A stretch of 64,000 nt of DNA from a virus. Shown here piece by piece: positions 15,193-63,230 of the stretch. Below the pieces are notes generated by a model. It saw only the letters and a program-made list of their open reading frames with translations, ran no database searches and was not told the DNA's origin. The position numbers were made by a program, and so were the translations under genes. Positions within the stretch are counted from its first letter, which is position 1. Every line of letters begins with the position of its first letter. The stretch lies in the IMG/VR virus record IMGVR_UViG_3300022890_000011, positions 1-64,000 of that record, one strand, 5' to 3'.

Positions 15193-15194
15193 TT

Positions 15195-15671
15195 ATGAAG
15201 AAAATTGATAAATATTTAGATTTTATTAAAAAAAATTACAAAGATATTGAAAAAAACAAATCTAAGATTAAAAATATTGTAAAAGATAATAATCTTATTA
15301 AGAATGATATTTTAAGCACTAAACAAAAAATAGAAAAATTGTTAATTTCAAAAATTGTAAAATTTAAAGAAAGAATGAAAAACGATCCAAATAATCCAAA
15401 TTATTTATGTATAGTTATTAAAAAACCATTTTCACATTATGATTATAAAGGATATATAGATGTTTCATATTTAAGGGAAACTGGTGGTTTTAGAATTTAT
15501 TTAAATTACGATAAAGGTAATAATTTACATTTATTGTCATTTAATAAAGATATGGAAGTCTATGATGAATTTAATGAAGATGAACAATTAGAATTAATAA
15601 CAAAATTATATAAATACTTTGATGATGATTTAGAACATTACATTGAAGGAAATAAATTGGGATTAATGTAA
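15195..15671 (+). CDS. Doubly tagged protein, 158 aa
   Basis: Starts MKKIDKYLDFIKKN, a looser N-terminal tag, and ends EGNKLGLM. The N-terminal third is a lysine-rich helix or coiled coil; the middle has YLCIVIKKPFSHYDYKGYIDVSYL, likely a beta sheet, and the end is acidic and helical. Function unknown. The next gene starts immediately after its stop. Confidence 0.75.
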   Translation: MKKIDKYLDFIKKNYKDIEKNKSKIKNIVKDNNLIKNDILSTKQKIEKLLISKIVKFKERMKNDPNNPNYLCIVIKKPFSHYDYKGYIDVSYLRETGGFRIYLNYDKGNNLHLLSFNKDMEVYDEFNEDEQLELITKLYKYFDDDLEHYIEGNKLGLM

Positions 15672-16046
15672 ATGAAATATTTAAAAACATATGAAAAATC
15701 TAATTTTGATAATTATCTTGATGAATATCTAAGAACAATATCAAAAGAAAATGATTTTCTTTGCTCATATATTGCAAATAATTTCTATTTTACCATATAT
15801 ACAGAATTAATCTATTCTGAAAGTGATGTTGATTCATCAATTAATATAGGTGAATTAGGTGAATTAAAAAGAATCGAAGACAAATTTCAAAAATTTGTTG
15901 ATAAATATATACCAAAAGATGCATCATGTTCTATTGGTATTGATCCTGATACACCATCAATAGATATGACAATTAATTGTTCTAAAGAAGACTTTATTAC
16001 TAAAAATGCACAACATTTAGAAGCTTATAAAATGGGTTTATTATGA
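15672..16046 (+). CDS. Doubly tagged protein, 124 aa
   Basis: Begins MKYLKTYEKSNFDNYL and ends EAYKMGLL. The middle region is acidic, with alternating hydrophobic strands (YFTIYTELIYS) and a DPDTPSIDMTINC segment. No recognised family. Its TGA overlaps the ATG of the next gene (TTATTATGAAATAT), the junction form shared by several neighbours. Confidence 0.75.
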   Translation: MKYLKTYEKSNFDNYLDEYLRTISKENDFLCSYIANNFYFTIYTELIYSESDVDSSINIGELGELKRIEDKFQKFVDKYIPKDASCSIGIDPDTPSIDMTINCSKEDFITKNAQHLEAYKMGLL

Positions 16047-16681
16047 AATATTTAAAAACATATGAAAATTACGGCAATAACCAACAACCATTTTGGTTAT
16101 CAATTGATAGCTTGTTCATATCAGATGATATAGTAAAAAATTGTATGGCAAAAGAAAAAGATAGAAATAAATCATATAAAAAATATAATAAATATTGGGT
16201 TGATAAATATTTATTTGCTGAATTTGGTTCTAGAAAAATATATCCTTTTACTATTAACAGTGTAAGATGGGATAAAACACCATTTAAAACTGGTGAAGTA
16301 AAAGGTAATCAATCATATAGAATGGATATACGATTTTCTAAATGGCCAGGAGTAGATAATGAAGTAAAAGTAAATAAGGCAGGTACATTTACATATTTTC
16401 TAAATGGAATATCAGGTGATTCCGAAATGTTTGGTAAAAGTATGATTAATGGTACACGATGGGCAAATTATAATTTCATGTGTAAGTTATATCCAATATT
16501 CAGATATGTTAAAAACGGATATAAAAGACTAAAAGAAGGAGAATTGTTCTTAGATATAATATCAGAACTTTTAGACACTAACCCAGAAATGGCAATACAT
16601 GAAGTACCAGAAGAATTAAAAGATAAATATCCAGACTATTATAATACATTTACAAATGCAAATAAATTAGGATTAATATGA
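16043..16681 (+). CDS. Doubly tagged protein, 212 aa
   Basis: Begins MKYLKTYENYGNNQQPFW and ends NANKLGLI. Between the tags it is rich in aromatic and basic residues, with YWVDKYLFAEFGSRKIYPF and a conserved-looking TRWANYNFMCKLYPIFRY segment. I do not recognise a fold. It is the longest of the array's unknown members and overlaps both neighbours by four bases. Confidence 0.75.
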   Translation: MKYLKTYENYGNNQQPFWLSIDSLFISDDIVKNCMAKEKDRNKSYKKYNKYWVDKYLFAEFGSRKIYPFTINSVRWDKTPFKTGEVKGNQSYRMDIRFSKWPGVDNEVKVNKAGTFTYFLNGISGDSEMFGKSMINGTRWANYNFMCKLYPIFRYVKNGYKRLKEGELFLDIISELLDTNPEMAIHEVPEELKDKYPDYYNTFTNANKLGLI

Positions 16682-17061
16682 TATATTTGAAGACATATGA
16701 AAATCATAAAGTTTATAAATATAATGTGATGACTACATTAGAAAATGAATTAAAAGATTTTATTGCAAGAAAAATATCATCTTTTGATGGTATTTTAGAA
16801 GTTGATGATGATATTGAAACAGTTGGAGAATTTAATCAAGACATTAAATATAATTATACAGCATATACGATTGGTGCGAACATAAACACAGATCCATTTC
16901 TTATTGAAGATAAAATTGAAGATTTTTTAAAGAATTTAAAACCCAGTAAATATACAATAACAGACAACGGATTTTGTTATACTATTACTTTTTTAATAAA
17001 AAGATCTGATATTAAATACCTAAAACATGTTATTGAAGGAAATAAATTAGGATTATTATGA
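16678..17061 (+). CDS. Doubly tagged protein, 127 aa
   Basis: Begins MIYLKTYENHKVYK and ends EGNKLGLL. The body is acidic and has alternating strands typical of a small alpha/beta domain (YTAYTIGANINTDPFLI, then YTITDNGFCYTITFLI). No known family. It overlaps both neighbours by ATGA. Confidence 0.75.
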   Translation: MIYLKTYENHKVYKYNVMTTLENELKDFIARKISSFDGILEVDDDIETVGEFNQDIKYNYTAYTIGANINTDPFLIEDKIEDFLKNLKPSKYTITDNGFCYTITFLIKRSDIKYLKHVIEGNKLGLL

Positions 17062-17597
17062 AATATTTGAAGACATATTCAGAAAATAAATTAATTAAAG
17101 ATAATTTAAGTGGTGATGGTAAAATATTAAATTTAGCTGATTTAAATCTAAATGAATTACCTGAACTACCAAAAGGGTTAGAAATATTATATTGTTATAA
17201 TAATAAATTAACTAAATTACCTGAATTACCTGAAGGATTAAAAACATTAAAATGTGATAATAACAAATTAACCGAATTACCTGAATTACCTGAAGGATTA
17301 AAAAGATTATCTTGTCATAATAACCAATTAACTGAATTACCTGAATTACCAAAAGGATTAAAAGAATTATATTGTTATAATAACCAACTAACTGAATTAC
17401 CTGAATTACCTAAAGAATTAATACAATTATATTGTCGTAATAACCAACTAACTGAATTACCTGAATTACCTAAAGAATTAATACAATTATATTGTCGTAA
17501 TAACCAATTACCTTATTATAATTTAGATGGTTATTGGAAATGGTTTTGGAAAGAAAATCCAGATCTTTATAATGCAAATAAAATGGGATTATATTAA
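17058..17597 (+). CDS. Leucine-rich repeat protein of YopM/IpaH type, doubly tagged
   Basis: Begins MKYLKTYSENKL, ends NANKMGLY, and contains about seven LRR units of 20 residues with the pattern NNxLTELPELPxGLxxLxC. This LPELP form is characteristic of the LPX class of repeats found in type III effectors such as YopM and IpaH and in related bacterial surface proteins. The last two full units are identical at the DNA level (about 17385-17504), showing recent repeat duplication. The C-terminal YWKWFWKENPDL segment is shared with a second LRR protein at 18906. It presumably binds a host protein; target unknown. Confidence 0.85.
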   Translation: MKYLKTYSENKLIKDNLSGDGKILNLADLNLNELPELPKGLEILYCYNNKLTKLPELPEGLKTLKCDNNKLTELPELPEGLKRLSCHNNQLTELPELPKGLKELYCYNNQLTELPELPKELIQLYCRNNQLTELPELPKELIQLYCRNNQLPYYNLDGYWKWFWKENPDLYNANKMGLY

Positions 17598-18170
17598 ATG
17601 AAGTATTTAAAGACATATAATCGAATGATAAATGAGATTTCAGTTAATGAGAATCAATATGAAAATACTTTTATACTATATAAAGTGTCTCAATATATTA
17701 AAGATAAATTAGAATTATTTGAAGAAATGTTTAACGAATCAATTATAAATGAAGTTGATGATGATGAAGTTAAAGAACATTTAGATGAATATACTGAATA
17801 TATTGATGAACTAGATCATGATATTGATATTGATGAAATTAGTAGTAAAGAATTAGAAGAAATAATTATTCCAGATGATGTAAAATTCATACATTATGCT
17901 AATTATTCAAATAATTGGCAAATGGAAGAAGAAATGGTTGAACATATATCAGATTGTTTAGTTGATGACGATGTTATAGAATGGGATGATATAGATTACG
18001 AAAAAGATAATGATCCAATAAATGACTTAATTAGAGGTTATATTGGATTATTTGATTATTCTGATTATAAATTTGAAGAGAAATATTCAAATAAAGGAGT
18101 ATATCAAATGGTTAAAAATGACCCTGAATTTATGAAATATGTTGAAGCAAGTAAAATGGGACTATTATGA
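17598..18170 (+). CDS. Doubly tagged acidic protein, 190 aa
   Basis: Begins MKYLKTYNRMINEISVNE (a possible INE cleavage site) and ends EASKMGLL. The body is extremely acidic: runs such as EVDDDEVKEHLDEYTEY and ECDD-like stretches dominate residues 45-150. Such acidity could mimic DNA, or balance positively charged packaged DNA-binding proteins; both are speculation. No family is recognised. It starts directly after the stop of the LRR gene. Confidence 0.75.
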   Translation: MKYLKTYNRMINEISVNENQYENTFILYKVSQYIKDKLELFEEMFNESIINEVDDDEVKEHLDEYTEYIDELDHDIDIDEISSKELEEIIIPDDVKFIHYANYSNNWQMEEEMVEHISDCLVDDDVIEWDDIDYEKDNDPINDLIRGYIGLFDYSDYKFEEKYSNKGVYQMVKNDPEFMKYVEASKMGLL

Positions 18171-18562
18171 AATATATTAAGAAATACAATGAAAAAGATT
18201 TTAGCGATTTTGAAAAATCAATTAATACATTCTTTAAAGATAAAAATATTATAATTGATAATTATAGAAATATAACAATTTTTATTAAAGATTGGGGTGA
18301 AGAAATGGGTGTTACATTTTGTTTAGAAACAAAGATATCTGATGATGATCATTATCCTTTGATTGCTGAAAACACAAATCAACTTACTGATATTATTCAT
18401 AAAGTTGATAAACTTACTAAATTATTACCAACTATATTAAACACTGAAATAAAAATAAGTTATGAAGATTCAGAAATATGGTTTGAATATACTGTAAATG
18501 TTGGTGAATTCATGGAAAAACACAAAGAATATTTTGACTCTGTTAAAATGGGATTATTATAA
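18167..18562 (+). CDS. Doubly tagged protein, 131 aa
   Basis: Begins MKYIKKYNEKDFSDF and ends DSVKMGLL. Residues 30-70 and 85-110 look like beta strands separated by helices (IIIDNYRNITIFIKDWGEE; IKISYEDSEIWFEYTV), a layout similar to the genes at 15672 and 16678. These may therefore be distant paralogues. Function unknown. It overlaps the previous gene by ATGA. Confidence 0.75.
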   Translation: MKYIKKYNEKDFSDFEKSINTFFKDKNIIIDNYRNITIFIKDWGEEMGVTFCLETKISDDDHYPLIAENTNQLTDIIHKVDKLTKLLPTILNTEIKISYEDSEIWFEYTVNVGEFMEKHKEYFDSVKMGLL

Positions 18563-18576
18563 AAATATATAAGATT

Positions 18577-18906
18577 ATGAATAAATATTTAAAAACATTT
18601 GAAGGTTTCCTTAAACCTAAAAATAAATATGCTGATTTAGAAAACCTTTCTAAAAGCAAATATGGAAACGGCAACGTAGATAAATCTACAGAAGAACGTA
18701 TACTAAATATTGACAATTTCAATAGATGGTTTAATGAAGAATGTAAAAGTTTTGGTGGAAAAGGTGAACCAGGCATATTTGGTAGAAGAGATAAACTATC
18801 TCAATCAGTTGTTGAAGATTATTTTTTTGATCAAGGCGTAGAATGTACTGAAACTGAAATAAATGGTTTTCATAAGAAAATTGAAGAAAATTGGATGAAT
18901 CTTTAA
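18577..18906 (+). CDS. Tagged protein, 109 aa
   Basis: Begins MNKYLKTFEGFLKPKNKYADL. The N-terminal tag is present but the C-terminal tag is absent (ends ENWMNL). The body has a glycine-rich middle (KSFGGKGEPGIFGRRDKLSQ) between helices. The start at 18577 leaves a 14-nt gap containing AAATATATAAG. The stop overlaps the start of the second LRR gene. Confidence 0.7.
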   Translation: MNKYLKTFEGFLKPKNKYADLENLSKSKYGNGNVDKSTEERILNIDNFNRWFNEECKSFGGKGEPGIFGRRDKLSQSVVEDYFFDQGVECTETEINGFHKKIEENWMNL

Positions 18907-20143: not shown

Positions 20144-21748
20144 ATGATTTTGTCACAATATGTTGAAGTTAAAATTTCTAATAACCAAATCAAATATTAT
20201 ATATTGAAAGGTTATGATGTAAAAGGAAACAATGAAATACGAAAAATAAAAGTATCAGATTTACCATTAAATAGTGGTCAAAAAATAGAAGTTCAATGTG
20301 ATATATGTAGTAATAAAAAAATTATTACAATGAATAGATATCAAATAAATACCAATAATGGTGAAAAATTATATACATGTAGTAGGAAATGTGCTGAATT
20401 TAAAAATAAACAAACATGTTTAGATAATTATGGAGTTGATAACATTTCTAAATTAGAAAGTGTAAAAATTAAAAAAATTGAAACATGTTTAGATAATTAT
20501 GGAGTTGAATTTCCACAACAATCTGAAAAAATATTTGAAAAAAGTAAAAATACAAAGAAATTAAAATATAATGATGAAAATTATAATAATCTTAAAAAAA
20601 GAATTCAAACATGTTTAAATAAATATGGTTGTGTATCACCTTCACAAAATACTAATATTAAAAAGAAAATGAAAATTAATCAATTTGAATCAAACAAAGA
20701 AAAAATATTAGAAAAATATAAAGATTTAAAAATAGTCAATTTTGATAAAGATGATAAATATGTGATTGAATGTGATTGTGATCAAAACCATACTTTCAAT
20801 ATTGAGTATAAATTACTATGGCAAAGAGTAAATGCTAAAACAACTTTATGTACAGTATGCAACGAAATCGATAGAAAACAGTCTGGGTTGGAAATAAACT
20901 TAATTAATTTTATTGAAAAAAACTATAATGGAGAAATTTTAATAGGTGATAGAGATGTTATTAAACCACTAGAATTAGATATTTATCTACCAGATTTAAA
21001 ATTGGCTTTTGAATTCAATGGGTTATATTGGCATAATGAATTAAATAAAGAAAACAATTATCATTTAAATAAAACAGAAAATTGCGTTGAAAAAGACACA
21101 CAACTTATTCATATTTGGGAAGATGATTGGTTATATAAACAACATATAGTAAAGTCAATGATATTAAACAAATTAGGTAATACTCCAACTAAAATATATG
21201 CTAGAAAATGTAAAATTGAAGTCATTCAAGATAACAAATTGATAAGAAATTTTTTGGATGAAAATCACCTTCAAGGTTTTGTTGGTTCAAGTATTAAATT
21301 AGGTCTTTATTATGAAAGAAATCTTGTAAGTTTAATGACTTTTGGAAAATCAAGGAAATCAATGGGCACAACTGCAAAAGAAGGCGATTATGAATTAATA
21401 AGATTTTGTAATAAGTTAAATACCAATGTTATTGGTGGTGCTGGTAAATTATTTAAACATTTCACTAGAAATTATTCTTTTAATGAAATAACATCATATG
21501 CTGACAGATCACATTCAAACGGTAAATTGTATGAAAATTTAGGATTTGAATTTGTTTCAAAAACTAAACCTAATTATTATTACATAATAGAAGGTTTAAG
21601 AAAATATAGGTTTAGTTTTAGAAAAGATATATTAATAAAGGAAGGTTTTGATCCAAATAAAAGTGAACATGAAATAATGTTGGGTAGAGGTATTTATAGA
21701 ATATATAATAGTGGAAATCTAAAATATAAATATAAGAAAGTGATTTAA
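20144..21748 (+). CDS. Hef-like homing endonuclease (Vsr/PD-(D/E)xK type)
   Basis: The 534-aa protein has a Cys4 zinc ribbon (CDIC at 52-55, CSRKC at 79-83), then three copies of a TCLDNYGV-type repeat (around 91, 114 and 156) that serves as a DNA-binding module in phage homing enzymes. A nuclease domain follows with LELDIYLPDLKLAFEFNGLYWH (Asp279, Glu290) and LIHIWEDDW. The C-terminal 200 residues resemble an acyltransferase-like fold (NHLQGFVGSS, LGLYYERNLVSLMTFGK) often fused in this family. It ends tail-to-tail with the split DNA polymerase and is the likely agent of that split. Confidence 0.8.
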   Translation: MILSQYVEVKISNNQIKYYILKGYDVKGNNEIRKIKVSDLPLNSGQKIEVQCDICSNKKIITMNRYQINTNNGEKLYTCSRKCAEFKNKQTCLDNYGVDNISKLESVKIKKIETCLDNYGVEFPQQSEKIFEKSKNTKKLKYNDENYNNLKKRIQTCLNKYGCVSPSQNTNIKKKMKINQFESNKEKILEKYKDLKIVNFDKDDKYVIECDCDQNHTFNIEYKLLWQRVNAKTTLCTVCNEIDRKQSGLEINLINFIEKNYNGEILIGDRDVIKPLELDIYLPDLKLAFEFNGLYWHNELNKENNYHLNKTENCVEKDTQLIHIWEDDWLYKQHIVKSMILNKLGNTPTKIYARKCKIEVIQDNKLIRNFLDENHLQGFVGSSIKLGLYYERNLVSLMTFGKSRKSMGTTAKEGDYELIRFCNKLNTNVIGGAGKLFKHFTRNYSFNEITSYADRSHSNGKLYENLGFEFVSKTKPNYYYIIEGLRKYRFSFRKDILIKEGFDPNKSEHEIMLGRGIYRIYNSGNLKYKYKKVI

Positions 21749-21759
21749 AAATCACTTTC
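21736..21759. terminator. Palindrome spanning both 3' gene ends
   Basis: GAAAGTGAT, a six-base AT spacer, then ATCACTTTC. The two stop codons (homing endonuclease and polymerase fragment) sit in the loop, and each arm encodes the last residues of one protein. It could act as a bidirectional terminator, although the T-tract is weak. Confidence 0.45.
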
Positions 21760-23214
21760 TAATTCTTTTAATTCTTTCTTTAATTCTTCCCATTCAGAAT
21801 GTTTTTGCATCATAATTTTCTTAAAACTTTTACGATCTGCATAAACTTCACCCATAACTTGGTTTACAACACCAATTTCATTTTTAAATACACTTCCATT
21901 TAATAAAACAATATCATCTTTTTCAATTTGTAGTTGATGACCATTAAATAACGTGTAATTTTTTCCTTTAACTTTTTGGCCTTTGTAACTATCAGCAGAT
22001 ATGTTAAATTGTCGAATTGTCATTGGATAAAGTGAGGCGAAATCATAACAACATGTCCATTTTGACATTCCTCTAACAGGTGGTAAAACAAAACCACCAG
22101 ACACACTACCTTCTTTTGCTTTACTTCCATCATCAAAATTATCATCTCTACATAGAACAATATTTTTTTGATCTTTAAGTTTATTTCTTAAAATACCTTC
22201 TGTTATAGCTAACGTAGAGAAACCATTTTGAACAGTTACTTTTGATTTGGTCGCCATCGCATAAAGAATATCAATATATTTTTGTTTTTCGTGTATTAAT
22301 TGAACTAGTACACTATCGACAACATTATAATAAATAAAATCTCTTTTATTCGTATTATATAAATGTTTAAGATCTCCTGTATATGCAACTTTACCAAACT
22401 CTTGACCTAGTATTGCTCCAGCAACAAAATCAAGTGCATTGCTTTCTTTTACTTTTACTGATGTGTCCCATTTTGCATAAAGTTCCATATAATCAACAAT
22501 AATCTTATGAGCTGGCATTTCTGAATAGTCATTTTGTTTCCATGATTCTTTTAATTTGCCTGTTAATGATGCTACTGTAGGATCTATACCGATTTTTCTC
22601 GCTCTATTTACAAGGAATACCCAGTCATAATTTATGAAATTCCATCCTGATATACAAGCCATTACTGGTACATATACTTTAAAAAAATTGAGTAAAAGTT
22701 CATATTCATTATTATAACAAATATATTTGAAACCCCATTTTTTATCAAATTTTTTCCCATATTTAACATTTAAATCATTTTCAATTGAACTTATTTCTTT
22801 TTTAGTGAGTGGGTCTATTCCCAAAACCAATGCTTTATCTTTATTAACGATTGAGATTGAAAGAATTGCTGATTCTGCTAAATGAGGTTCTGGTTTCTTA
22901 TCTAATATTTCGTTTTCTATGTCAACAAAAAATATATTTGGCTCTTTATAATCAAATAATATTGATTGGTCTTCACTGGGAAGAGAACCTAAGAAATCAT
23001 AAACAGCATATTTATTTGGATATTTTGTGTATATTTCTTTAACTGATTTACCATTCCACATTACATATTTTCCAGACTTCTCTTTATCATGGTCTGATGT
23101 TGGTATAAATTTTGTAGGTCTTCCCCACGGGAAGTATTTTAAACGGACATTACCTGCATCATTGATATAGCTACATAACAACTTCGAATTTTTAAATTCA
23201 TAGTCTATAAGCAT
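21745..23214 (-). CDS. Family B DNA polymerase, N-terminal half only (gp43-like)
   Basis: The 489-aa protein holds the exonuclease and the first polymerase motif of a T4-type polymerase: Exo I FFVDIENE (Asp98, Glu100), Exo II NFINYDWVF (Asp197), Exo III YNVVDSVLV (Asp300) and motif A CYDFASLYPMTIRQ (Asp391). It stops after a lysine-rich helix, before motif B (KxxxNSxYG) and motif C (DTDS). No frame elsewhere in the window contains those motifs. Several T4-like phages split gene 43 at this same place with a homing gene in between, and the two subunits assemble. Here the second half must lie elsewhere or be lost. Confidence 0.85.
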   Translation of the reverse strand: MLIDYEFKNSKLLCSYINDAGNVRLKYFPWGRPTKFIPTSDHDKEKSGKYVMWNGKSVKEIYTKYPNKYAVYDFLGSLPSEDQSILFDYKEPNIFFVDIENEILDKKPEPHLAESAILSISIVNKDKALVLGIDPLTKKEISSIENDLNVKYGKKFDKKWGFKYICYNNEYELLLNFFKVYVPVMACISGWNFINYDWVFLVNRARKIGIDPTVASLTGKLKESWKQNDYSEMPAHKIIVDYMELYAKWDTSVKVKESNALDFVAGAILGQEFGKVAYTGDLKHLYNTNKRDFIYYNVVDSVLVQLIHEKQKYIDILYAMATKSKVTVQNGFSTLAITEGILRNKLKDQKNIVLCRDDNFDDGSKAKEGSVSGGFVLPPVRGMSKWTCCYDFASLYPMTIRQFNISADSYKGQKVKGKNYTLFNGHQLQIEKDDIVLLNGSVFKNEIGVVNQVMGEVYADRKSFKKIMMQKHSEWEELKKELKELESDF

Positions 23215-23277
23215 GTGTGTATTATTACTTTTTTTATTTTAAAAACATAGTCAATTAACATTTTTGACTTTTTAAAA

Positions 23278-23287
23278 TTAATATATA
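23278..23287 (+). promoter_or_regulatory. TTAATATATA motif before DUF723 nuclease
   Basis: Exact copy followed by G, 30 nt upstream of ATG 23318 in the divergent gap behind the polymerase gene. Confidence 0.45.
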
Positions 23288-23317
23288 GTAATATAAAATA
23301 AATCGAAAGTTAAGTTT

Positions 23318-24580
23318 ATGAAAAAGTTAGAAAAATTTATAGTTAAAGCCATTAATGTTCATGCTGATAAGTACGATTATAGTTTAGTAGTATATGAAAA
23401 TTCACAAAAGAAAGTTAAAATTATATGTCCTGAACATGGTATTTTCGAACAAAGACCAGCAAATCATAATCGAGGACAGGGTTGTCCTTCTTGTGCAGGT
23501 GTAAAAAGGAACACACAATCAGATTTTATATATAAAGCTTCTGAAGTACATAACAATAAATACGATTATAGTTTAGTGGAATATAAAAACAATAAAACTA
23601 AAATTAAAATTATATGCCATGAACATGGCGTTTTCGAACAGAGGCCTGATAATCATCTAAACAAAAAAACAGGATGTCCTATATGTGCCGATAACCAGTT
23701 ATATTCATCTTGTGAATATATTGAGAAAGCCAAAAAAGTACATGACAATAAATATGATTATTCTTTAGTTATTTATAAAAATGCTAAATCCATGATAAAA
23801 ATTATTTGTCCAGAACACGGCGAATTTAAACAAAAGGCATATTCACATTTAGATGGTATAGGTTGTTCTAAATGTTCAGAAAATTACAATTATTCAACAG
23901 AAGAATATATTGAAAAAGTTAAAAAAGTTCACGGTAATAAATATGATTATTCTTTAGCTGAATATAAAAACAATAAAACTAAGATTAAAATTATTTGTTC
24001 TATTCATGGTATATTTGAACAAAATCCAAAATCACATTTAAATGGACATGGTTGTCAGAAATGTTTTTTTGATGAGAACACAGACAATAAACAAGATTTT
24101 GTTAATAAGTCTAAAAACAAACACGGTAATAAATATGATTATTCTTTAGTTGAATATATAAATAGTTATACAAATGTTAAAATTATATGTCCAAATCATG
24201 GTATATTTGAACAACGACCATCAACACATACCAATGGTGGTGGTTGTTCTTTATGTAAAGAAAGTAAAGGTGAAAGGGAAGTATCTTTATATTTAGATGA
24301 TAAGAATATTAAATATGAAAGGCAAAAGATATTTGAAGATTGTAAAGATGTTAGACATTTACCTTTTGATTTTTATTTACCAAAATATAATATGTGTATA
24401 GAATATGATGGCTTACAACATTTTAAACCTATAGAATTTTTTGGTGGAGAAAAAACTTTTTTATTAACAAAGGAACATGATAGAATTAAGAATGAATATT
24501 GTGAAGATAATGGTATTAAATTAATAAGAATAAAATATAATCAAAAAATTAAAAAACAGTTAAATTTGGTCAAGAATTGA
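23318..24580 (+). CDS. Homing-type endonuclease: DUF723-like repeats plus Vsr-like nuclease
   Basis: The 420-aa protein has five copies of a ~60-residue module with the pattern VHxNKYDYSLVxYKNxxxKIKIICxEHGxFEQ followed by a CxxC pair. These are DNA-binding zinc repeats (DUF723 type). A C-terminal nuclease domain carries LPFDFYLPKYNMCIEYDGLQHF and IKLIRIKY, as in Vsr-like homing enzymes. A close relative with four modules is at 43851-44969. It sits between the polymerase fragment and the mini-AAA gene and has its own TTAATATATA motif. The first residues MKKLEKF are probably only accidentally tag-like. Confidence 0.8.
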   Translation: MKKLEKFIVKAINVHADKYDYSLVVYENSQKKVKIICPEHGIFEQRPANHNRGQGCPSCAGVKRNTQSDFIYKASEVHNNKYDYSLVEYKNNKTKIKIICHEHGVFEQRPDNHLNKKTGCPICADNQLYSSCEYIEKAKKVHDNKYDYSLVIYKNAKSMIKIICPEHGEFKQKAYSHLDGIGCSKCSENYNYSTEEYIEKVKKVHGNKYDYSLAEYKNNKTKIKIICSIHGIFEQNPKSHLNGHGCQKCFFDENTDNKQDFVNKSKNKHGNKYDYSLVEYINSYTNVKIICPNHGIFEQRPSTHTNGGGCSLCKESKGEREVSLYLDDKNIKYERQKIFEDCKDVRHLPFDFYLPKYNMCIEYDGLQHFKPIEFFGGEKTFLLTKEHDRIKNEYCEDNGIKLIRIKYNQKIKKQLNLVKN

Positions 24581-24599: not shown

Positions 24600-24980
24600 T
24601 CATTTTATATTTATTATCGTGCTTTTATCTGTCAATATTTTAGGTAGACCTTTTGTATTTGAGCATGTAAAAATAGCATATATTGTTTCTTTAGCTGTAA
24701 CAAAAACATATCTTAATATAAAAGGTATAATATTTCTGTTAGCTTTATCAATATTATCAAATATTATTGAATCTTCATCAGTTATTAATGAACTAGGATC
24801 TTTTGTTAATTTAGAACAATCTATTATTTGATAATCTAAACCTATTTCTTTTATAGAATTTTCTGATATTGATAATTTACCACTACCAGGTTTACCACAT
24901 ACTAGTAATGGTTGAGTGTAATCTTCTAGTCTTGTAGTAACAGGATTATTATAATTTTCAAATGTTTTTAAATGTTTCAT
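24600..24980 (-). CDS. Degenerate mini AAA ATPase with N-terminal tag
   Basis: The 126-aa protein begins MKHLKTFENYNNP. It contains CGKPGSGKLS, a Walker A loop with Leu where Ser/Thr is expected, then SIIFDNIDKA as a Walker B-like strand without the usual Glu, and AIFTCSN as a sensor-1 strand. Order and spacing follow the full AAA+ protein at 3450-4670, so it looks like a shortened, possibly non-hydrolysing paralogue consisting of tag plus core. It lies 19 bases beyond the DUF723 gene end, convergent with it. Confidence 0.6.
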   Translation of the reverse strand: MKHLKTFENYNNPVTTRLEDYTQPLLVCGKPGSGKLSISENSIKEIGLDYQIIDCSKLTKDPSSLITDEDSIIFDNIDKANRNIIPFILRYVFVTAKETIYAIFTCSNTKGLPKILTDKSTIINIK

Positions 24981-34471: not shown

Positions 34472-34846
34472 TTATTTCTCATTATCTTTTGTTATATCTT
34501 CTTGTTCTTCTTTTGCAGTACCAATTATTTTATCAAAGTCTTCGATATCTTGTTCAAGTTCATCCATTTTAGGTTCAATATCTTCAGAATCTATACCTTT
34601 TTGAAAGTCTTGTTTAATATCTTTTGTTGTGTCTTCGATTTTTTTACCTTGATCTTCAATTAAATCTGTACTATTTTTTAATTGATCTAATTTATCAGAA
34701 GTTGTATCTGGTTCAACATTTTCAATTTCTTCTGTTTCTTTTGATTTAGATTTTTGTTCTTCTTGATGTTTTTGAATTTTATTAGATAATTCACTTTTGA
34801 ATTCATCTGCGCTTTGTTCATTTAAGAATTCTATATAGGTTTTCAT
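34472..34846 (-). CDS. T4 internal-protein-like coiled coil with capsid-targeting N-terminus
   Basis: The 124-aa protein begins MKTYIEFLNEQSADEF. As I recall it, the T4 internal protein targeting sequence is MKTYQEFIAE, so eight of the ten positions are the same or similar, and LNE is a fitting cleavage site. The rest is a highly charged, low-complexity coiled coil (EEQKSKSKETEEIENVEPD) with no fold signature. Such a composition suits a scaffold core or internal head protein. It carries an upstream TTAATATATAG motif and is followed directly by the tape-measure-like gene. Confidence 0.7.
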   Translation of the reverse strand: MKTYIEFLNEQSADEFKSELSNKIQKHQEEQKSKSKETEEIENVEPDTTSDKLDQLKNSTDLIEDQGKKIEDTTKDIKQDFQKGIDSEDIEPKMDELEQDIEDFDKIIGTAKEEQEDITKDNEK

Positions 34847-36236: not shown

Positions 36237-36989
36237 TTATTGTTGAGTTTTTATTCCTTGTGGTGTTGTTATTTGTTGTCCTTGTGTTAATTGTTTAGTT
36301 TGTGATTGAACTTGTTGTGATTGAACTCGAACAGTACTTGATTCTTTTGCTATATCCTTAATTTTAGAAAAAATATCACTTTCTTGTGTTTGTTGTGAAT
36401 CTTTAACTGGTAAATCAACATATTGATACAAACTCTTCCAATTTATTCCTATAATACTACCACCAAATGGTTTAAGTGAATTTTTATATGGTTTTCCTTG
36501 AACAGTATTTTCATCAACATCTTGTCCCTGTATATCTAAATTTGTTAATTCAATAATACTTCTATCACCATCTTGATTTTGGTATATGTATGAATTACCA
36601 ACTTTTAGTATATTTTTCCCGGTGCATTGTTTAGGTTGTGATAATTGATCTTTACTTCTACCGACAGGCCCGTTAATTTTACCTTCTTTATTTTTATATT
36701 TCAATTGATAAATATCACCATCAATTTTAACAAGCAATGCTGTAACTTTCATACCCTTATTTTTATAAGTATATAAATTACCTTCTTTAAATTCACTTGT
36801 AGTTGCAGGTAATGTTTGAGTTTGTGGTTGTGATTTTATAGGTAATGTTTGACCCCCTTTATTAATATGTTCTTGTCTTTTAGCTATATTTACTTGTGAT
36901 TGTGACGCACCACTTTTTCCTGATGCTATCTGTGATGTAGCTTCTTTAGCACCTGTATTTTCTTTAATAAAATTACTAAATTTTTTCAT
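36237..36989 (-). CDS. Tagged probable inner-virion protein, 250 aa
   Basis: Begins MKKFSNFIKENTGAKEA, a close match to a T4-type capsid-targeting sequence with a possible cut after IKE. The region after it is Gln/Ser-rich and disordered. Two beta domains follow: FKEGNLYTYKNKGMKVTALLVKIDGD (68-93) and VGNSYIYQNQDGDRSIIEL (130-150). The tail is again Gln-rich. No enzymatic motif. It shares a strand and a 5-nt gap with the 840-aa gene upstream, suggesting an inner-head module. Confidence 0.65.
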   Translation of the reverse strand: MKKFSNFIKENTGAKEATSQIASGKSGASQSQVNIAKRQEHINKGGQTLPIKSQPQTQTLPATTSEFKEGNLYTYKNKGMKVTALLVKIDGDIYQLKYKNKEGKINGPVGRSKDQLSQPKQCTGKNILKVGNSYIYQNQDGDRSIIELTNLDIQGQDVDENTVQGKPYKNSLKPFGGSIIGINWKSLYQYVDLPVKDSQQTQESDIFSKIKDIAKESSTVRVQSQQVQSQTKQLTQGQQITTPQGIKTQQ

Positions 36990-40937: not shown

Positions 40938-41390
40938 ATGAAATATCTTAAAGATTATAATTCATGGGATAATAAATTATTAAAAGAATTTTACGAAGAA
41001 ACAGATAATTTAGAAGAACTTAAAAAAAGATGTGAATATTTAATTGATAAGTTTGGAAAACCCTCACTTGGTGTACCTGATAAGGATTATTTAAGTATTT
41101 TGATACCATTATCAAATCATGAAATTATTGATTTTTTGTGTGATATTGAAAATATTAAATCTTTTTCTCTTGAAATTTTAAGACCACCTATTACACTAGA
41201 TTATAAATTTAAAATATATTTTTTAAATGAAAATAACCCTAACGATAACTATGAAATATTTGCAATTTCAAGAGAAAAAGATTTAATTTTAATTGATTCA
41301 TCATATGAACAATATAAAATTATTGAAAATATTATTTTATTTGGAGATGTTGAACAAAGAATAACTACAAATCAAATGGGTTTACTTTAA
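40938..41390 (+). CDS. Doubly tagged protein, 150 aa
   Basis: The frame extends further upstream, but ATG 40938, one base after the previous stop, gives MKYLKDYNSWDNKLLKE, a clear tag. The protein ends TTNQMGLL. It contains an acidic helical region and a beta segment (ILRPPITLDYKFKIYFL). It is organised like the members at 15672-18562 but lies 20 kb away, so tagged genes are not confined to one array. It meets the next gene convergently with a 4-nt overlap. Confidence 0.7.
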   Translation: MKYLKDYNSWDNKLLKEFYEETDNLEELKKRCEYLIDKFGKPSLGVPDKDYLSILIPLSNHEIIDFLCDIENIKSFSLEILRPPITLDYKFKIYFLNENNPNDNYEIFAISREKDLILIDSSYEQYKIIENIILFGDVEQRITTNQMGLL

Positions 41391-41647
41391 CCTGTATTCG
41401 AAACTGTAGAACCAATAGGATTTTTACTTAATAACCCTTTAGTATATTCACCGAAAGTATTAACTGGTGGTATTTCTTTATCATCTTCTAAATTATTATG
41501 AATCTGTTTTCTTAATATTTCAAATTCTTCTGGTGTTAAATCTCTATTTAGTAATTCCATTTGTTTATCAACTGTGTGTTGAAGTATATCTTCATCAGAA
41601 GGTGTTATTTGAGTTTCAAATTGTTTATATGTTTTTATATGTTTCAT
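41387..41647 (-). CDS. Small tagged protein, 86 aa
   Basis: Begins MKHIKTYKQFETQITP. A helical acidic middle with DLTPEEFEILRKQIHNNL is followed by a polar C-terminus without the tag. Unrecognised. It is the last gene of a minus-strand series of five tagged genes (41387-43864) that overlap or nearly touch one another. Confidence 0.65.
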   Translation of the reverse strand: MKHIKTYKQFETQITPSDEDILQHTVDKQMELLNRDLTPEEFEILRKQIHNNLEDDKEIPPVNTFGEYTKGLLSKNPIGSTVSNTG

Positions 41648-42057
41648 AATATTCCTAGATTAATTCCGTTTTTCGCCCATTCTAAATTTTTTAGAAGTGG
41701 TGTTAAAATTGTTTTTTTAAATTTTTTGATTTTTATTAAACTTTTCCCATCATAACCCCCAGAAGAAAAATTCATAGATGTTGGATTATTGAAATCTTTT
41801 TCTAACTTAGATAAATATTTTAGATTTTCTGTTAAAAATTCATCCAATCTTTTATAATCAGTGTGACTTTTTTTTATATTAGGTATCCATTCTATAAATG
41901 GTGCAGAATCAGACTCATCATCACGAAATATATAATATAAATTTGGGAAATCACCGCCAATATCGCCAATAAAAAAACAAAAATGTTTATGATAATATGA
42001 TTCTACCATTGGTAGTTTGTTAAATTCAAAATTTTCGTATGTTTTTAAATATTTCAT
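41644..42057 (-). CDS. Doubly tagged protein, 137 aa
   Basis: Begins MKYLKTYENFEFNKL and ends NGINLGIL, a looser C-terminal tag. The middle is beta-rich and aromatic (HKHFCFFIGDIGGDFPNLYYIF), with a basic helix-strand near the end. Its layout (short alpha/beta domain between tags) resembles SMI1/KNR4-type immunity domains in composition (FPNLYYIFRDDESDSAPFIEW), but I cannot confirm this. It overlaps the next gene by four bases. Confidence 0.7.
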   Translation of the reverse strand: MKYLKTYENFEFNKLPMVESYYHKHFCFFIGDIGGDFPNLYYIFRDDESDSAPFIEWIPNIKKSHTDYKRLDEFLTENLKYLSKLEKDFNNPTSMNFSSGGYDGKSLIKIKKFKKTILTPLLKNLEWAKNGINLGIL

Positions 42058-42060
42058 AAT

Positions 42061-42414
42061 TTAGTCTAGATCATCAATTGCATCCCAAAGTTTGTTTTGT
42101 TGTATTTTTTTATGTCTCCAATGAAAAGGATCATTTTCTTCCATTTCAATTGTATATTTTTCAAAGTTCTCAACAAAATCATTAGTCAATTTAGCTTGAT
42201 CTAATGCAAATAATAATTGTTCATAGAATTGATCTGGATTATAATCTTCTTCACAAGCCTCTATTTCAGGAAAAACATCTTTAAATGGTTCTCTACCATA
42301 CTTAAAATTAAGTAATTCTACTAACTGATAAACATCAAGAAACCCAATTATATCTTCCCATGAGTTAATATCTTCATATTCATATGCTTCATTAAATTTT
42401 CTTAAATGTTTCAT
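42061..42414 (-). CDS. Small tagged acidic protein, 117 aa
   Basis: Begins MKHLRKFNEAYEYED; FNE forms the likely processing site. The rest is acidic and helical, with WEDIIGFLDVYQLVELL and QFYEQLLFALDQAKL. No C-terminal tag. Unrecognised. It overlaps the preceding tagged gene by four bases (ATGA type). Confidence 0.65.
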   Translation of the reverse strand: MKHLRKFNEAYEYEDINSWEDIIGFLDVYQLVELLNFKYGREPFKDVFPEIEACEEDYNPDQFYEQLLFALDQAKLTNDFVENFEKYTIEMEENDPFHWRHKKIQQNKLWDAIDDLD

Positions 42415-42980
42415 AAATTATATTTAATTTTAACTTCTTTTAAAGCTTCTTTATATGTATTATTTTGTGGATATTTATCACATAACATTTGTATAGATTG
42501 TGTAATTTTTAATTTATTTCCTTTAGATGACATACCTCTCCCAATAATAGTATATGAAAATCCATCAATAATTTTATTAGCTGATAAATTACAATTATTA
42601 ATATCTTCTAGATCTTCATTATTTGGTAATCTATATGATGTATATGTAAATATTTTAGGTTTACATTTTTCTATAATATCAGTTAAATCTAAAGGATAAA
42701 TAGCATTTAAATGTTCTGCACAAAATTGATATCTAGAATCTTTTTTCTCAAATTCTAATATAATTGTTTTATATGTGTCATTGTGTTCACTTATAAAATT
42801 GTCAAGATAACTTTTAATTTTATCATAATTTGTAAAATCTTTTTCAGATATTCTATTTTCTTCTGTAAGAATGTGCATCCAGTAGCTTCTAACATTATCT
42901 TCATAAGGCCATTCTGGTGGTTTAATACCTAATCCAGTCCAGTTATTATTTTCATTTAAAAATTGGTCAAATTTTTTCAT
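42411..42980 (-). CDS. Tagged protein, 189 aa
   Basis: Begins MKKFDQFLNENNNWTG, almost the T4-type targeting consensus with LNE as the cut site. The body is alpha/beta, with HNDTYKTIILEFEKKDSRY and a GRGMSSKGNKLKITQS loop; no family recognised. It overlaps the WYL-like gene upstream by four bases, so both are likely made together. Confidence 0.7.
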   Translation of the reverse strand: MKKFDQFLNENNNWTGLGIKPPEWPYEDNVRSYWMHILTEENRISEKDFTNYDKIKSYLDNFISEHNDTYKTIILEFEKKDSRYQFCAEHLNAIYPLDLTDIIEKCKPKIFTYTSYRLPNNEDLEDINNCNLSANKIIDGFSYTIIGRGMSSKGNKLKITQSIQMLCDKYPQNNTYKEALKEVKIKYNL

Positions 42981-43864
42981 AATAAGTTCATTTTTTCAAT
43001 AAAAACATAAATATCCATACTTGTTTTACCTCTTACTCTTTTATGTTTATCTATTTCATCAGCAGTAAATGCTTCAATAGTTTTATATGTTCCTTTTAAT
43101 TCTTTGTTATCAAAGACTTTTACACTTTTATTTATAGTACCTATGGCACCAATTAAGAATATCCAATTATCACCTAGAACACTTTTCATAATAGATATTT
43201 TAAGTAATTTATCATCACCAACTTGCTTTCTAGTTTCTTGCATTAATTCAGTTGCCCAAGGATTGTAAAGATCTATCATTTGATCTGTATCTTTAATATC
43301 AATTTTAGTGATAGTAGTTTCTTTACCAATTGTTGTTTTTTCTTCTGATTCAATTTTACCAGATTGTATAAGTTTATTTTGATTTCTTCTTATTTCGTTA
43401 AAATCAGCTTTTTGTATTGTCCTTTCTGACATCACTCTATCATTCATTTTATAATCTTTGGGTGGTAATCTAAAGAAGTTTCCTGTGAATGTCATATGTT
43501 CTATATTTGATACATTGAATAACCTCCAAACTTTTTCATTACTTCCACCACCACTATGAGAGTAACCTTGAACATGCCATCCTCTTAAAAGTGTATTCTT
43601 TGTATTTTTATTAATACCTAAATTCATTGGATATATAACTCTTTCTCCACCTCCACCTTTATCATCTTCACCTTCATATTTTATTAGTATTATCATGCCA
43701 TTTTTAATAGCTTGAATAAGTTTTGCTTCATTATATGGTATTCTTTTATTGATAGGGAAATTTGGAACAATATCCATAATTTCTTGTGATTCAAATACTC
43801 TATATTTTGGAACGAAAATTGAATCGTTTTTTGTAGATTCTTTATGTTGTTTAAATTTTTTCAT
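42977..43864 (-). CDS. WYL-like domain protein carrying both tags, 295 aa
   Basis: The N-terminus MKKFKQHKESTKND is tag-like and the end EKMNLL matches the C-terminal tag. Residues 48-140 show a WYL-like pattern: LIQAIKNGMIILIKYEG, then ERVIYPMNLGINK, LLRGWHVQGYSHSGG and VWRLFNVSNIEHMTFTG. WYL domains sense nucleic acids or nucleotides and regulate transcription or defence systems. There is no helix-turn-helix, so it is not a standard regulator. The last 90 residues (TELMQETRKQVG, then ISIMKSVLGDNWIFLIGA) are unknown. A delivered sensor or inhibitor is speculation. Confidence 0.6.
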   Translation of the reverse strand: MKKFKQHKESTKNDSIFVPKYRVFESQEIMDIVPNFPINKRIPYNEAKLIQAIKNGMIILIKYEGEDDKGGGGERVIYPMNLGINKNTKNTLLRGWHVQGYSHSGGGSNEKVWRLFNVSNIEHMTFTGNFFRLPPKDYKMNDRVMSERTIQKADFNEIRRNQNKLIQSGKIESEEKTTIGKETTITKIDIKDTDQMIDLYNPWATELMQETRKQVGDDKLLKISIMKSVLGDNWIFLIGAIGTINKSVKVFDNKELKGTYKTIEAFTADEIDKHKRVRGKTSMDIYVFIEKMNLL

Positions 43865-44969
43865 TAAAAATAAAATTCATTTTTTCTTCTATATTATCAG
43901 TATATTTAATCCTTAAAAGTTTAATATTTTTCTCTTCGCAGAATTTTGTTTTAATTTTATCGTGTTTTTTCACGTAGTTTAAATTTTCGACACCACCAAA
44001 ATATTCAATTGGTTTAAAATGTTGTATGCCATCATATTCTATACACATGTTTAAATTATCAAGATAAAAATCAAATGGTAATTTATTTTTATCAATACAA
44101 TCATTAAATTTTTTTTGTTTAGTATAGTTAAGATTGTTCTTTTTTAAAAATTTTGTTATAAATTTTTCTCCTTTACTTTCTTTACAAACAGGACAACCGT
44201 GTCCAGATAGATGTGAGTTTGGTGTTTGTTCAAATACACCATGTTTTTTACAAATAATTTTAACTTTTGTTGTTGCATTAAAATAATCAACCATTGAATA
44301 GTTATATTTATGTTCATGTGTTTTGATTGAATCTTTTATGAATTGTGTATTTGATTTTTTAAGTTTAATATGTGTGGATTCATTTCCACATAAATCACAA
44401 CCAAAACCTTTATGGTGATTTGATGGTGTTTGTTCAAAAATGCCATGTTTAGGACAAATTATTTTCACATTTACTTTTGCTGTAATATATTTTACTAAAA
44501 AATAATCGTATTTATTTCCGTGTATTTTTCTTGATTTATTAATGAAATGGTTTGAATCTTTCGAATATTTTGTTGAAAGATTTTCATATGAACATTTTTT
44601 ACAACCAGACATATTACTAATATGAGATTTTGGTGTTTGTTTAAAAATACCATGTTTTTTACATATAATTTTAACTTTGGTGTTGTAATTAATATAATTA
44701 ACTTTTGAATAATCGTATTTATCGCCATGTATATTTTTAGATTTTTCAATAAATTCTTCTGTCGTTAATTTTTTATTACCATTACATTTTGAGCAACCAC
44801 TTGTTCTTAAATGTTTATTTGGTGTTTGTTCAAAAATACCATGTATTTTACATATAATTTTAACTTTAGTATTATAATTAACATAATTTACTAAAGAGTA
44901 ATCATATTTATCACCATGTATTTTAATAGATTCATTTATGAATTCTTCTATTGTTTTCTTTTTTCTCAT
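43851..44969 (-). CDS. Homing-type endonuclease: DUF723-like repeats plus Vsr-like nuclease
   Basis: The 372-aa relative of the enzyme at 23318 has four modules of the form IHGDKYDYSLVNYVNYNTKVKI plus a CxxC pair. A nuclease end follows with LPFDFYLDNLNMCIEYDGIQHF and IKLLRIKYTD. Module number and sequence differ from the other copy, implying a different target. It overlaps the start of the WYL-like gene by 14 bases, so insertion at that place may have altered the neighbour's start or expression. It lies beside the second RuvC-like gene. Confidence 0.8.
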   Translation of the reverse strand: MRKKKTIEEFINESIKIHGDKYDYSLVNYVNYNTKVKIICKIHGIFEQTPNKHLRTSGCSKCNGNKKLTTEEFIEKSKNIHGDKYDYSKVNYINYNTKVKIICKKHGIFKQTPKSHISNMSGCKKCSYENLSTKYSKDSNHFINKSRKIHGNKYDYFLVKYITAKVNVKIICPKHGIFEQTPSNHHKGFGCDLCGNESTHIKLKKSNTQFIKDSIKTHEHKYNYSMVDYFNATTKVKIICKKHGVFEQTPNSHLSGHGCPVCKESKGEKFITKFLKKNNLNYTKQKKFNDCIDKNKLPFDFYLDNLNMCIEYDGIQHFKPIEYFGGVENLNYVKKHDKIKTKFCEEKNIKLLRIKYTDNIEEKMNFIFNEKI

Positions 44970-45001: not shown

Positions 45002-45721
45002 TTATAATTTATTGGTCTTCATCATTTCTTTAACAAGTAAAGAATCAATAATATCATCAAAAGGTTTCGGTATTGTTTTTGTTGTTAGTATTTCTTTTTG
45101 GTTTTCTTCACAAAATTTAAATGCAGGACTATTTATATCACCTTCTAACATAGCTAAAAACATTTCTTTTTTATTAAATTCACCACCACTAATTCCTTGT
45201 TTATTTGTCGCAGGTGGTTGTGTTTTTAATGGTTCTCCAGTTCTTTTATTTAAAAGAACTTCGGGTTTACCATATACCATCTCACATGTTAGAGTTTTTA
45301 ATCTTTTTGGTGATATAACTCTAAAGTCTTTTATTTTTGGTATATTTTCGAAAATTTTTAATCTTATTGATTGTCCTAAACCAACTAAATCAATTATTGG
45401 ACCAGGAGAAGATTTGAAACCATATGAATATCCTTCAATACCTATATTTGTATTTTCATTTAAATCTATAACTGAAAGTATGTCTTTCAATACCATTTCA
45501 GAAATTTGACTAAATGTTTGTAATTTATAGAATTCACTTTCACTATAAATATCAGATGTATAATAAGTAAATTGTGTGTATTTAATTTGGTCTTTTGTTT
45601 TTTTAATCCATTTATAACCTAAATCTTTTGTAGTATAATTAAAAAGAAAGTCACCTTTATTAGATTCAACTGAAATAGCTGTTGAAGCTTTTGATGGATC
45701 AATTCCGATGTAATTGTTCAT
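45002..45721 (-). CDS. RuvC-like Holliday junction resolvase, copy 2
   Basis: The 239-aa paralogue of the gene at 2750 has IGIDPSKASTAISV (Asp8), IGIEGYSYG (Glu96) and PFDDIIDSLLV (Asp222/223 and Asp226). Both copies keep every acidic residue of the RNase H-fold active site, so both may be active. They differ in the middle insertion (residues 155-180). Two resolvases in one phage may separate replication and packaging roles, or one may serve a different substrate. Identity rests on motif order only. Confidence 0.65.
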   Translation of the reverse strand: MNNYIGIDPSKASTAISVESNKGDFLFNYTTKDLGYKWIKKTKDQIKYTQFTYYTSDIYSESEFYKLQTFSQISEMVLKDILSVIDLNENTNIGIEGYSYGFKSSPGPIIDLVGLGQSIRLKIFENIPKIKDFRVISPKRLKTLTCEMVYGKPEVLLNKRTGEPLKTQPPATNKQGISGGEFNKKEMFLAMLEGDINSPAFKFCEENQKEILTTKTIPKPFDDIIDSLLVKEMMKTNKL

Positions 45722-61602: not shown

Positions 61603-61626
61603 ATGGTGTTAAAAATAAAATTACTG

Positions 61627-62817
61627 ATGAAACATTTAAAAACATATGATGATTTAATAAATGAATCAATATTTGATTTTGGTTTTCTTAAAGGTGTTAA
61701 AGATTTTGTTTCAAATTTTTTTAGTGGAAAAGCAAATGCTAAAGAGATTACTATTAATTTAACAAATGCATTGAGAAATTATCAAAAAGAAGTATTACAC
61801 AATCCTTATAAACTTGATAGATTATCTATTAATAGTATGTTGAAAAAAATTAAAGATATAGTTGGTGAAGAATTATTAATTGATCTTAATTTAGATTCAT
61901 TTTTCAGGGGACTTTATAGTGTATCTGTTTTAAAAGGAGATAGACATGAAAATATTATAGATTATTTCAATTCTTATATTGATTTATTATCACAAAGAGT
62001 ACAAAAATTATATAAGAAAAAGAAAGATGTTGATTATGAAGAAGAAGAATTTGAAGAAGTAAAAAAATTGAAGAAAAAAGCCATTCAAAAAATGACTAAT
62101 AAAGAGTTTAGAAAGAAAAAAACTCCTCTTCAAATTGAATTATTAAAATTACAAAATTGGTTATATAGAAAAGATAAAAGATTAGCTGTTCTTTTTGAAG
62201 GTAGAGATGCTGCAGGAAAAGGTTCAGCAATCAAGACCATTATTGAATTTCTAGACCCAAAATTATTTAAAGTGGCTACGTTTGGTATACCAACAGAAGA
62301 AGAAAAATTAAATTGGTTTGAAAGATATACTAAGAAATTACCAAAACCTGGTAAAATATCATTTTTTGATAGAAGTTGGTATAATAGAGCAGTAAATGAC
62401 CCTGTTATGGGTTATTGTACAAAAGAACAATATAATGAATTTATAGAAGAAGTTATTCCATTTGAAGATCAATTAATTGATAATGGATTATATTTATTTA
62501 AATTTTGGTTCTCAGTGAGCCAAGAAACTCAAGAATTAAGGTTTCAAATTAGACAAGCAAATCCATTAAAGACCTGGAAATTTAGTGAAAATGATTTATT
62601 AACTATGAATAAATGGGATAAATTTACAGCATATAAAGAGAGAATGTTTTTACAAACTTCTACAGAAAAATCACCTTGGGTAATTGTTGATTCTAATGAT
62701 AAGAAATTGGCTCAAATTAACATAATGAAATATATTTTAGAACAGATACCATATAAAAATAAAGATGTTAAAAGAGTTGGTCATCCATTACCAGAAATCG
62801 TAATACCTTTGAAATGA
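61627..62817 (+). CDS. ppk2: Polyphosphate kinase 2 with capsid-targeting-like N-terminus
   Basis: PPK2 enzymes transfer phosphate between polyphosphate and nucleotides, usually NDP to NTP or NMP to NDP. The C-terminal 230 residues are a class I-like PPK2 domain: Walker A EGRDAAGKGS (191-200), lid PTEEEKLNWFERY, Walker B FFDRSWYNRAVND (246-258), then VMGYCTKEQY and NPLKTWKFSENDL. All appear intact. The N-terminal 165 residues are unrelated: the tag MKHLKTYDDLINES (INE cut site) and an unknown helical domain ending in a lysine-rich linker. The fusion and tag suggest packaging in the head and release into the host, a new use for PPK2. Confidence 0.88.
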   Translation: MKHLKTYDDLINESIFDFGFLKGVKDFVSNFFSGKANAKEITINLTNALRNYQKEVLHNPYKLDRLSINSMLKKIKDIVGEELLIDLNLDSFFRGLYSVSVLKGDRHENIIDYFNSYIDLLSQRVQKLYKKKKDVDYEEEEFEEVKKLKKKAIQKMTNKEFRKKKTPLQIELLKLQNWLYRKDKRLAVLFEGRDAAGKGSAIKTIIEFLDPKLFKVATFGIPTEEEKLNWFERYTKKLPKPGKISFFDRSWYNRAVNDPVMGYCTKEQYNEFIEEVIPFEDQLIDNGLYLFKFWFSVSQETQELRFQIRQANPLKTWKFSENDLLTMNKWDKFTAYKERMFLQTSTEKSPWVIVDSNDKKLAQINIMKYILEQIPYKNKDVKRVGHPLPEIVIPLK

Positions 62818-63230
62818 AATATTTAAAAAAATTTGAAGATATTATTACTACTACTTATGATAATATTGATATACCTATTGATTATACAGATGATATATTA
62901 TTTGATTTAGATTTTGAAACATTTAAATCAGTTTTAAATCTTATAAATATTGGTAGGCCACTTAATGCTTTAAAAAGTATTAAACATAAATTAGATTATG
63001 GTTTAAAACAATGCAAAGATTTGATGGGGAGAATGTGTTCTCTATTAGGTTATGATAGATTTAATATTAAATCTAATGAAAATGATCAATTTAATTATCA
63101 AGATGAAATAATAGATAAATATCCAGAATTAATATCATTAATTAGTAATTCAGAAAGATTTAATTTATTACCAGAAATAAGAGAAATATATGATGATTTA
63201 ATTCAAGGAAGTGAGTTGGGATTATTGTAA
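62814..63230 (+). CDS. Doubly tagged protein, 138 aa
   Basis: Begins MKYLKKFEDIITT and ends QGSELGLL. It overlaps the ppk2-like gene by four bases (ATGA), so the two are made together. The body is helical and includes FKSVLNLINIGRPLNALKS and DLMGRMCSLLGYDRFN. Unrecognised. It could be a partner of the kinase. Confidence 0.7.
   Translation: MKYLKKFEDIITTTYDNIDIPIDYTDDILFDLDFETFKSVLNLINIGRPLNALKSIKHKLDYGLKQCKDLMGRMCSLLGYDRFNIKSNENDQFNYQDEIIDKYPELISLISNSERFNLLPEIREIYDDLIQGSELGLL

Follow-up and report, generated by a model that had tools for sequence, protein, structure and literature searches.

The WYL protein gene and its phage relatives

The window analysed here, positions 1 to 64,000 (64 kb) of the 166,601-base viral record IMGVR_UViG_3300022890_000011, carries an open reading frame (ORF) for a WYL-family protein, lying downstream of a gene for a DUF4379 protein and a gene for a RuvC-like nuclease (Table 1). 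The ORF is a genuine gene, with relatives (35-45% identity over >90% of the length, tblastn) in five uncultured phage records of 634-735 kb, two of which share one length, 735,411 bases. An IMG/VR search queried with an alignment of five family members found 88 loci, of which 80 were kept, and collapse at 90% identity gave 55 non-redundant sequences (54 besides the window protein). A single-sequence query of the WYL protein against viral contigs found no family member. Scans of the genomes of bacterial and archaeal species, the motif-based one reaching close patterns only and leaving distant relatives possible, turned up no relative, and the family is apparently restricted to viral sequences. 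The Mahaphage clade includes complete huge-phage genomes of 634, 636, 642 and 735 kb, with Bacteroidetes as predicted hosts (PMC7162821).

Among 49 family sequences 28 alignment columns are invariant, chiefly in the WYL domain and in the segment that follows it (F-x-G-x-F-x-R-x-x-P-x-G-Y; A-D-F-x-x-I-R-x-N-Q-x-x-L). The window protein has no match in PHROGs or NCBIfam, and a PDB sequence search using the family profile gave no match of note; Pfam matches to PDEase_I and argininosuccinate synthase, weak and isolated, were set aside. A literature search of open-licence papers, including a direct look for phage WYL proteins, found no description of a huge-phage WYL family. As far as these searches show, a conserved two-domain WYL family in huge phages, linked to recombination genes, is new; the WYL domain itself is well known.

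Table 1 Features of the WYL protein gene and of the genes upstream of it (window coordinates).
Feature	Position	Strand	Basis or remarks
WYL-family protein gene	42977-43864	-	ORF, 295 amino acids, ATG start; family of 5 phage records and >80 IMG/VR loci
Divergent WYL (Sm-like barrel) domain, residues 42-146	43427-43741	-	Pfam, AlphaFold2 model, Foldseek, VIA-align
β4/β5 ligand-motif segment W113-RLFNVSN-I121	43502-43528	-	Family majority WRLFRTDRI
C-terminal β-rich domain, residues 186-292	42989-43309	-	AlphaFold2 model; no PDB match
Tag-like N-terminus MKKFKQHKES, residues 1-10	43835-43864	-	Predicted disordered, not conserved
RuvC-like nuclease gene, upstream of WYL gene, likely functional neighbour	45002-45721	-	phrog_159 family matches, invariant acidic residues
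DUF4379 (treble-clef zinc finger) protein gene, between RuvC-like and WYL genes	43851-44969	-	Pfam

A divergent WYL barrel without a DNA-binding head

The AlphaFold2 model of the window protein, built from 48 sequences, has a mean predicted local distance difference test score (pLDDT) of 85.3 and a predicted template modelling score of 0.77, with pLDDT <50 at residues 1-10 and 101-107. As modelled, residues 42-146 are a divergent WYL-fold domain in which a helix is followed by a five-stranded barrel, an Sm-like fold also indicated by the PDB matches. The top 13 Foldseek matches in the PDB are all WYL proteins, the best being PafBC (E = 2.9e-4), followed by BrxR and CapW. In VIA-align, WYL proteins fill the top 15 rows, covering approximately the same residues of the model, with Z from 9.2 to 6.5 (PafBC 9.2, with root-mean-square deviation 3.0 and 91 aligned residues; BrxR 8.5; DriD 8.2; CapW 8.1), and are followed by Hfq and Sm proteins with Z of 6 and below (5-6); some of these Z values are near the level that common arrangements attain, yet the leading rows are WYL proteins. 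The Pfam WYL profile (PF13280) matches residues 48-125 at E = 0.027, and because its score of 14.9 bits is below the curated cut-off of 21.8, the domain is called divergent rather than a standard PF13280 member. The same profile matches 15 of 49 family members (E up to 1; best E = 0.0034), so that WYL identity is backed both by the leading structural rows and by the relatives. The WYL-like domain proposed for this protein in the initial annotation is thus borne out by structure search, and so is the lack of a helix-turn-helix: only 41 residues precede the barrel domain, with no helix before residue 46 in the model.

Divergence is evident at the sequence level. The W-Y-L triplet, carried by only a subset of WYL proteins (PMC11804915), is lost, the corresponding strand reading T-L-L-R-G-W-H. 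A comparison of profiles with seven bacterial WYL proteins fell short of significance, even though both sides shared the register (AI...Y...R-x-x-x-P). The WYL candidate YafY of E. coli carries a lipoprotein annotation in K-12, and YfjR was used in its place.

The putative ligand-binding segment differs between the family majority and the window protein. The family motif is W113-R114-x-F116-R117-x-D119-R120-I121, in which R114 is invariant (48/48 sequences) and Arg fills positions 117 and 120 in 35/48; Y63, R75, R94 and H97 are also invariant in the family alignment. The spacing is that of R208/F210/R211/R214 in PafB and of the equivalents R183/F185/R189 in CapW (PMC9122588), with positions matched from spacing and strand order rather than by computed structural alignment. 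The PafB residues sit in the β4/β5 loop, where arginine mutation abolishes binding of single-stranded DNA (ssDNA) by PafBC (PMC11804915; earlier mutational screen in PMC6789036). The fold, together with the conserved arginines, makes nucleic-acid binding plausible. The window protein keeps R114 and F116 but has N117 and N120; its clade otherwise carries K117 with N120, N117 being peculiar to the window protein. If the position matching is right, ligand binding by the window protein may be looser or of another kind, with ssDNA binding possibly weakened or changed because Asn replaces both arginines equivalent to PafB R211 and R214.

Protein termini and the C-terminal domain

The part of the protein after the barrel was modelled alone as residues 147-295 and is confident from approximately residue 186. 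This model has no convincing match in the PDB (best Foldseek E = 0.79, best VIA Z = 2.7), WCX (ferredoxin-like) is not among the listed Foldseek and VIA matches, and profile comparison with bacterial WYL-WCX proteins was not significant.

An N-terminal tag, approximately M-K-[YHK]-[LIF]-K-x-[YF], recurs across the window (23 of 82 ORFs, versus 0.7% of internal positions) in forms approximating MKYLKTYE or MKHLKKFNE (e.g. ORFs 14923-18906, 24600-24980, 40938-42980 and 62814-63230). The WYL protein had been described as tagged, but its start has no aromatic at position 7 and fails the pattern, scoring 6.8 bits versus 15-20 for clear tags (21st of the 82 ORFs). It is also predicted to be disordered, and none of the 54 other non-redundant family members, which usually start MNLxxxxxYYNxKPVEFV, matches a strict tag-like pattern. 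The MNLL end reported alongside the tag is a feature of the window protein that relatives do not conserve (e.g. DLYLFDKKI). Elsewhere in the window, the starts of ORFs 34472-34846 (MKTYIEFLNE) and 36237-36989 (MKKFSNFIKEN) resemble the T4 capsid-targeting sequence, and in the gene for a PPK2 polyphosphate kinase (61603-62817, + strand; E = 1.2e-79) the tag MKHLKTYDDLINES starts at an internal ATG.

Gene neighbourhood and phylogeny

Clustering of all ORFs around the 55 non-redundant loci revealed recurrent linkage with recombination genes. In 12 of 55 loci, among them the window, a RuvC-like gene is found upstream of the WYL gene on its strand, with 38-49 bp between the two in loci L001, L076 and L078. 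All 12 members of this RuvC-like family match phrog_159 (best E = 1.3e-7), with invariant acidic residues (D8, E96, D223, D226) in RuvC-like order. Of the 55 loci, 34 have a UvsY-like gene; 33 of these (all but L043) place it downstream on the WYL strand, the gap being 30-33 bp in L056 and L064. The 14 UvsY-like family members all match phrog_231 (best E = 1.5e-5). A sliding-clamp-like gene is found in 13 of 55 loci, with one member matching phrog_223 (E = 0.0041). Each of the five phage records that carry the WYL gene encodes a RuvC-like and a UvsY-like protein as well, often far from it. In the cultured jumbo phages RAS14 and XacN1, the gene after the RuvC-like gene was tried as a WYL relative and ruled out by BLASTP and Pfam. 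A second RuvC-like protein of the window (2750-3460, + strand), without a Pfam match, was judged to be such by its start, MYNLIGLDISKVSTAMTIEV, which is like that of the nuclease upstream of the WYL gene.

A maximum-likelihood tree of the 55 sequences has two clades, both with 100/100 support: one of 13 members, 11 of them RuvC-linked, and one of 42 members, 34 of them UvsY-linked. L004, an early branch of the larger clade, also has a RuvC-like gene, which suggests that RuvC-WYL linkage is old. As linkage follows the tree, it represents few independent events.

The DUF4379 gene, which overlaps the start of the WYL gene by 14 bases, is missing at that place in relatives where RuvC-like and WYL genes adjoin (e.g. 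L001), and is therefore probably an inserted mobile gene outside the RuvC-WYL unit; its product is possibly a free-standing homing-type endonuclease. Other recurrent neighbours are a gene for a 240-amino-acid protein family upstream on the opposite strand, divergent from the WYL gene (38/55 loci, e.g. L048 6826-7548), a PPK2-type gene (21/55 loci) and, in 8-10 loci at a distance of a few kb, a salvage pair for nicotinamide adenine dinucleotide (NAD) made up of nicotinamide phosphoribosyltransferase and cytidyltransferase/Nudix genes (e.g. L019 12935-15454). No defence or anti-defence gene was recognised beside the WYL gene.

Elsewhere in the window, part of a family B DNA polymerase (489 amino acids, 21745-23214) has homing-type endonuclease genes on either side (20144-21748 and 23318-24580), which suggests that the polymerase gene within 20144-24580 is split.

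Proposed role and alternatives

Prediction and structure search establish the barrel fold, and the analysis likewise establishes the family's apparent restriction to viruses, its linkage to recombination genes and a motif kept in most members. Tentatively, and with a little under even confidence, the WYL protein is read as an accessory factor that binds single-stranded nucleic acid during phage recombination or replication, with nucleic-acid binding, partner and role all inferred. The wider generalisation is somewhat less secure: that these proteins form a phage-specific WYL class with its own C-terminal domain, outside transcription control and defence, whose members bind ssDNA as accessories when the largest known phages replicate by recombination. 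The encoded protein joins a divergent Sm-like WYL barrel to a β-rich C-terminal domain; its N-terminus is flexible and it has no DNA-binding head. The groove of the barrel would bind ssDNA (or RNA), as in PafBC, DriD and TePif1, and the C-terminal domain might serve oligomerisation or contact with a recombination or replication partner (the UvsY-like mediator or RuvC-like nuclease). The protein would then assist recombination-dependent replication or repair of the phage's own DNA by binding or sensing ssDNA, and would not be a transcription factor. WYL domains are known chiefly as sensors in bacterial DNA-damage and anti-phage regulators; if the proposal is true, the conserved WYL protein of the largest phages would be a WYL domain serving the phage's own DNA metabolism. 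Among the many huge-phage genes that lack annotation, it is a candidate open to testing.

Several observations weigh against this proposal. The W-Y-L triplet is lost, Asn occupies both ligand-motif positions noted above, and the C-terminal domain has no recognised fold. Linkage that follows the tree may reflect gene order kept by descent and not a shared function; in many loci kilobases separate the linked gene from the WYL gene, and the complete genomes usually keep just one of the two partners close by. In RAS14 and XacN1 an unrelated protein comes after the RuvC-like gene.

The alternatives, in order of falling likelihood, are an RNA-binding role, a nucleotide sensor, a decoy and an injected protein. 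An RNA-binding regulator, whose Sm-like barrel would bind phage or host RNA post-transcriptionally or as an enzyme accessory in the manner of Hfq or RspWYL1, is unlikely, if the least so of the four. Behind WYL, the structural matches continue with Sm and Hfq folds, and the matches also include PDB 6oaw, titled CRISPR Cas-related protein and presumably RspWYL1. RspWYL1, a WYL accessory protein, binds single-stranded RNA (ssRNA; PMC6547453). However, no RNA-processing neighbour was recognised in the loci, where those recurrent linked genes whose kind is known belong to recombination. Scarcely behind it in probability is a sensor of small molecules or nucleotides that would contact and thereby control a phage or host protein, such as a product of the NAD or polyphosphate genes that some family members have nearby: conflict-system WYL domains have been proposed as sensors of ADP-ribose or cyclic nucleotides (PMC9503650), and the PPK2-type and NAD genes recur near the WYL gene. 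The NAD genes, though, are several genes away and confined to part of one clade, and ligand-binding evidence for WYL domains so far favours ssDNA or ssRNA.

Control of host defence is a less likely role for the WYL protein than copying or repair of phage DNA, because the gene sits among recombination genes; the initial suggestion that it acts on a host defence regulator finds no evidence. The gene is conserved throughout a large clade of huge phages, and most loci have a RuvC-like or UvsY-like gene near it. The related idea of a counter-defence decoy, a headless WYL domain that soaks up the ssDNA or other signal of host WYL regulators (BrxR or CapW, for instance) or pairs with them, is improbable: the protein shares their fold and lacks a helix-turn-helix, but it is conserved clade-wide with invariant residues and a second domain, its gene is not in a recognised accessory defence region, and the WCX dimerisation domain used by such regulators was not recognised in its C-terminal part. 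Most improbable is an internal virion protein injected with the DNA, the tag-delivered sensor of the initial annotation. It draws on the partial likeness of the start to the window tag, and is left unsupported because that start is degenerate, disordered and carried by no relative.

Comparison with known WYL proteins

The phage family has in common with the regulators PafBC, DriD, BrxR and CapW the helix and Sm-like barrel and the β1 tyrosine, and most phage relatives also have the R-x-F-R-x-D-R motif. It differs from them in lacking a helix-turn-helix, in a C-terminal domain not recognised as WCX and in loss of the W-Y-L triplet; it is also phage-encoded and linked to recombination genes. Other phages have annotated WYL-domain proteins of 71-90 amino acids, and the phage-encoded BFVD entries A0A8S5VTW8, A0A6J5RNM4 and A0A2H5BPX9 are matched to the same WYL fold, but at 76-154 amino acids in total each is too short to hold the C-terminal domain too.

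WYL domains exist outside regulators in TePif1-type helicases (PMC9964779) and RspWYL1 (PMC6547453). In the former, a C-terminal WYL domain binds ssDNA via equivalent arginines; the phage protein would likewise place a WYL domain in a DNA-metabolism protein, but has no helicase in the same polypeptide, and its ssDNA binding is only predicted. The latter, accessory to Cas13d, has a central WYL barrel and an extra C-terminal domain, as in the phage protein.
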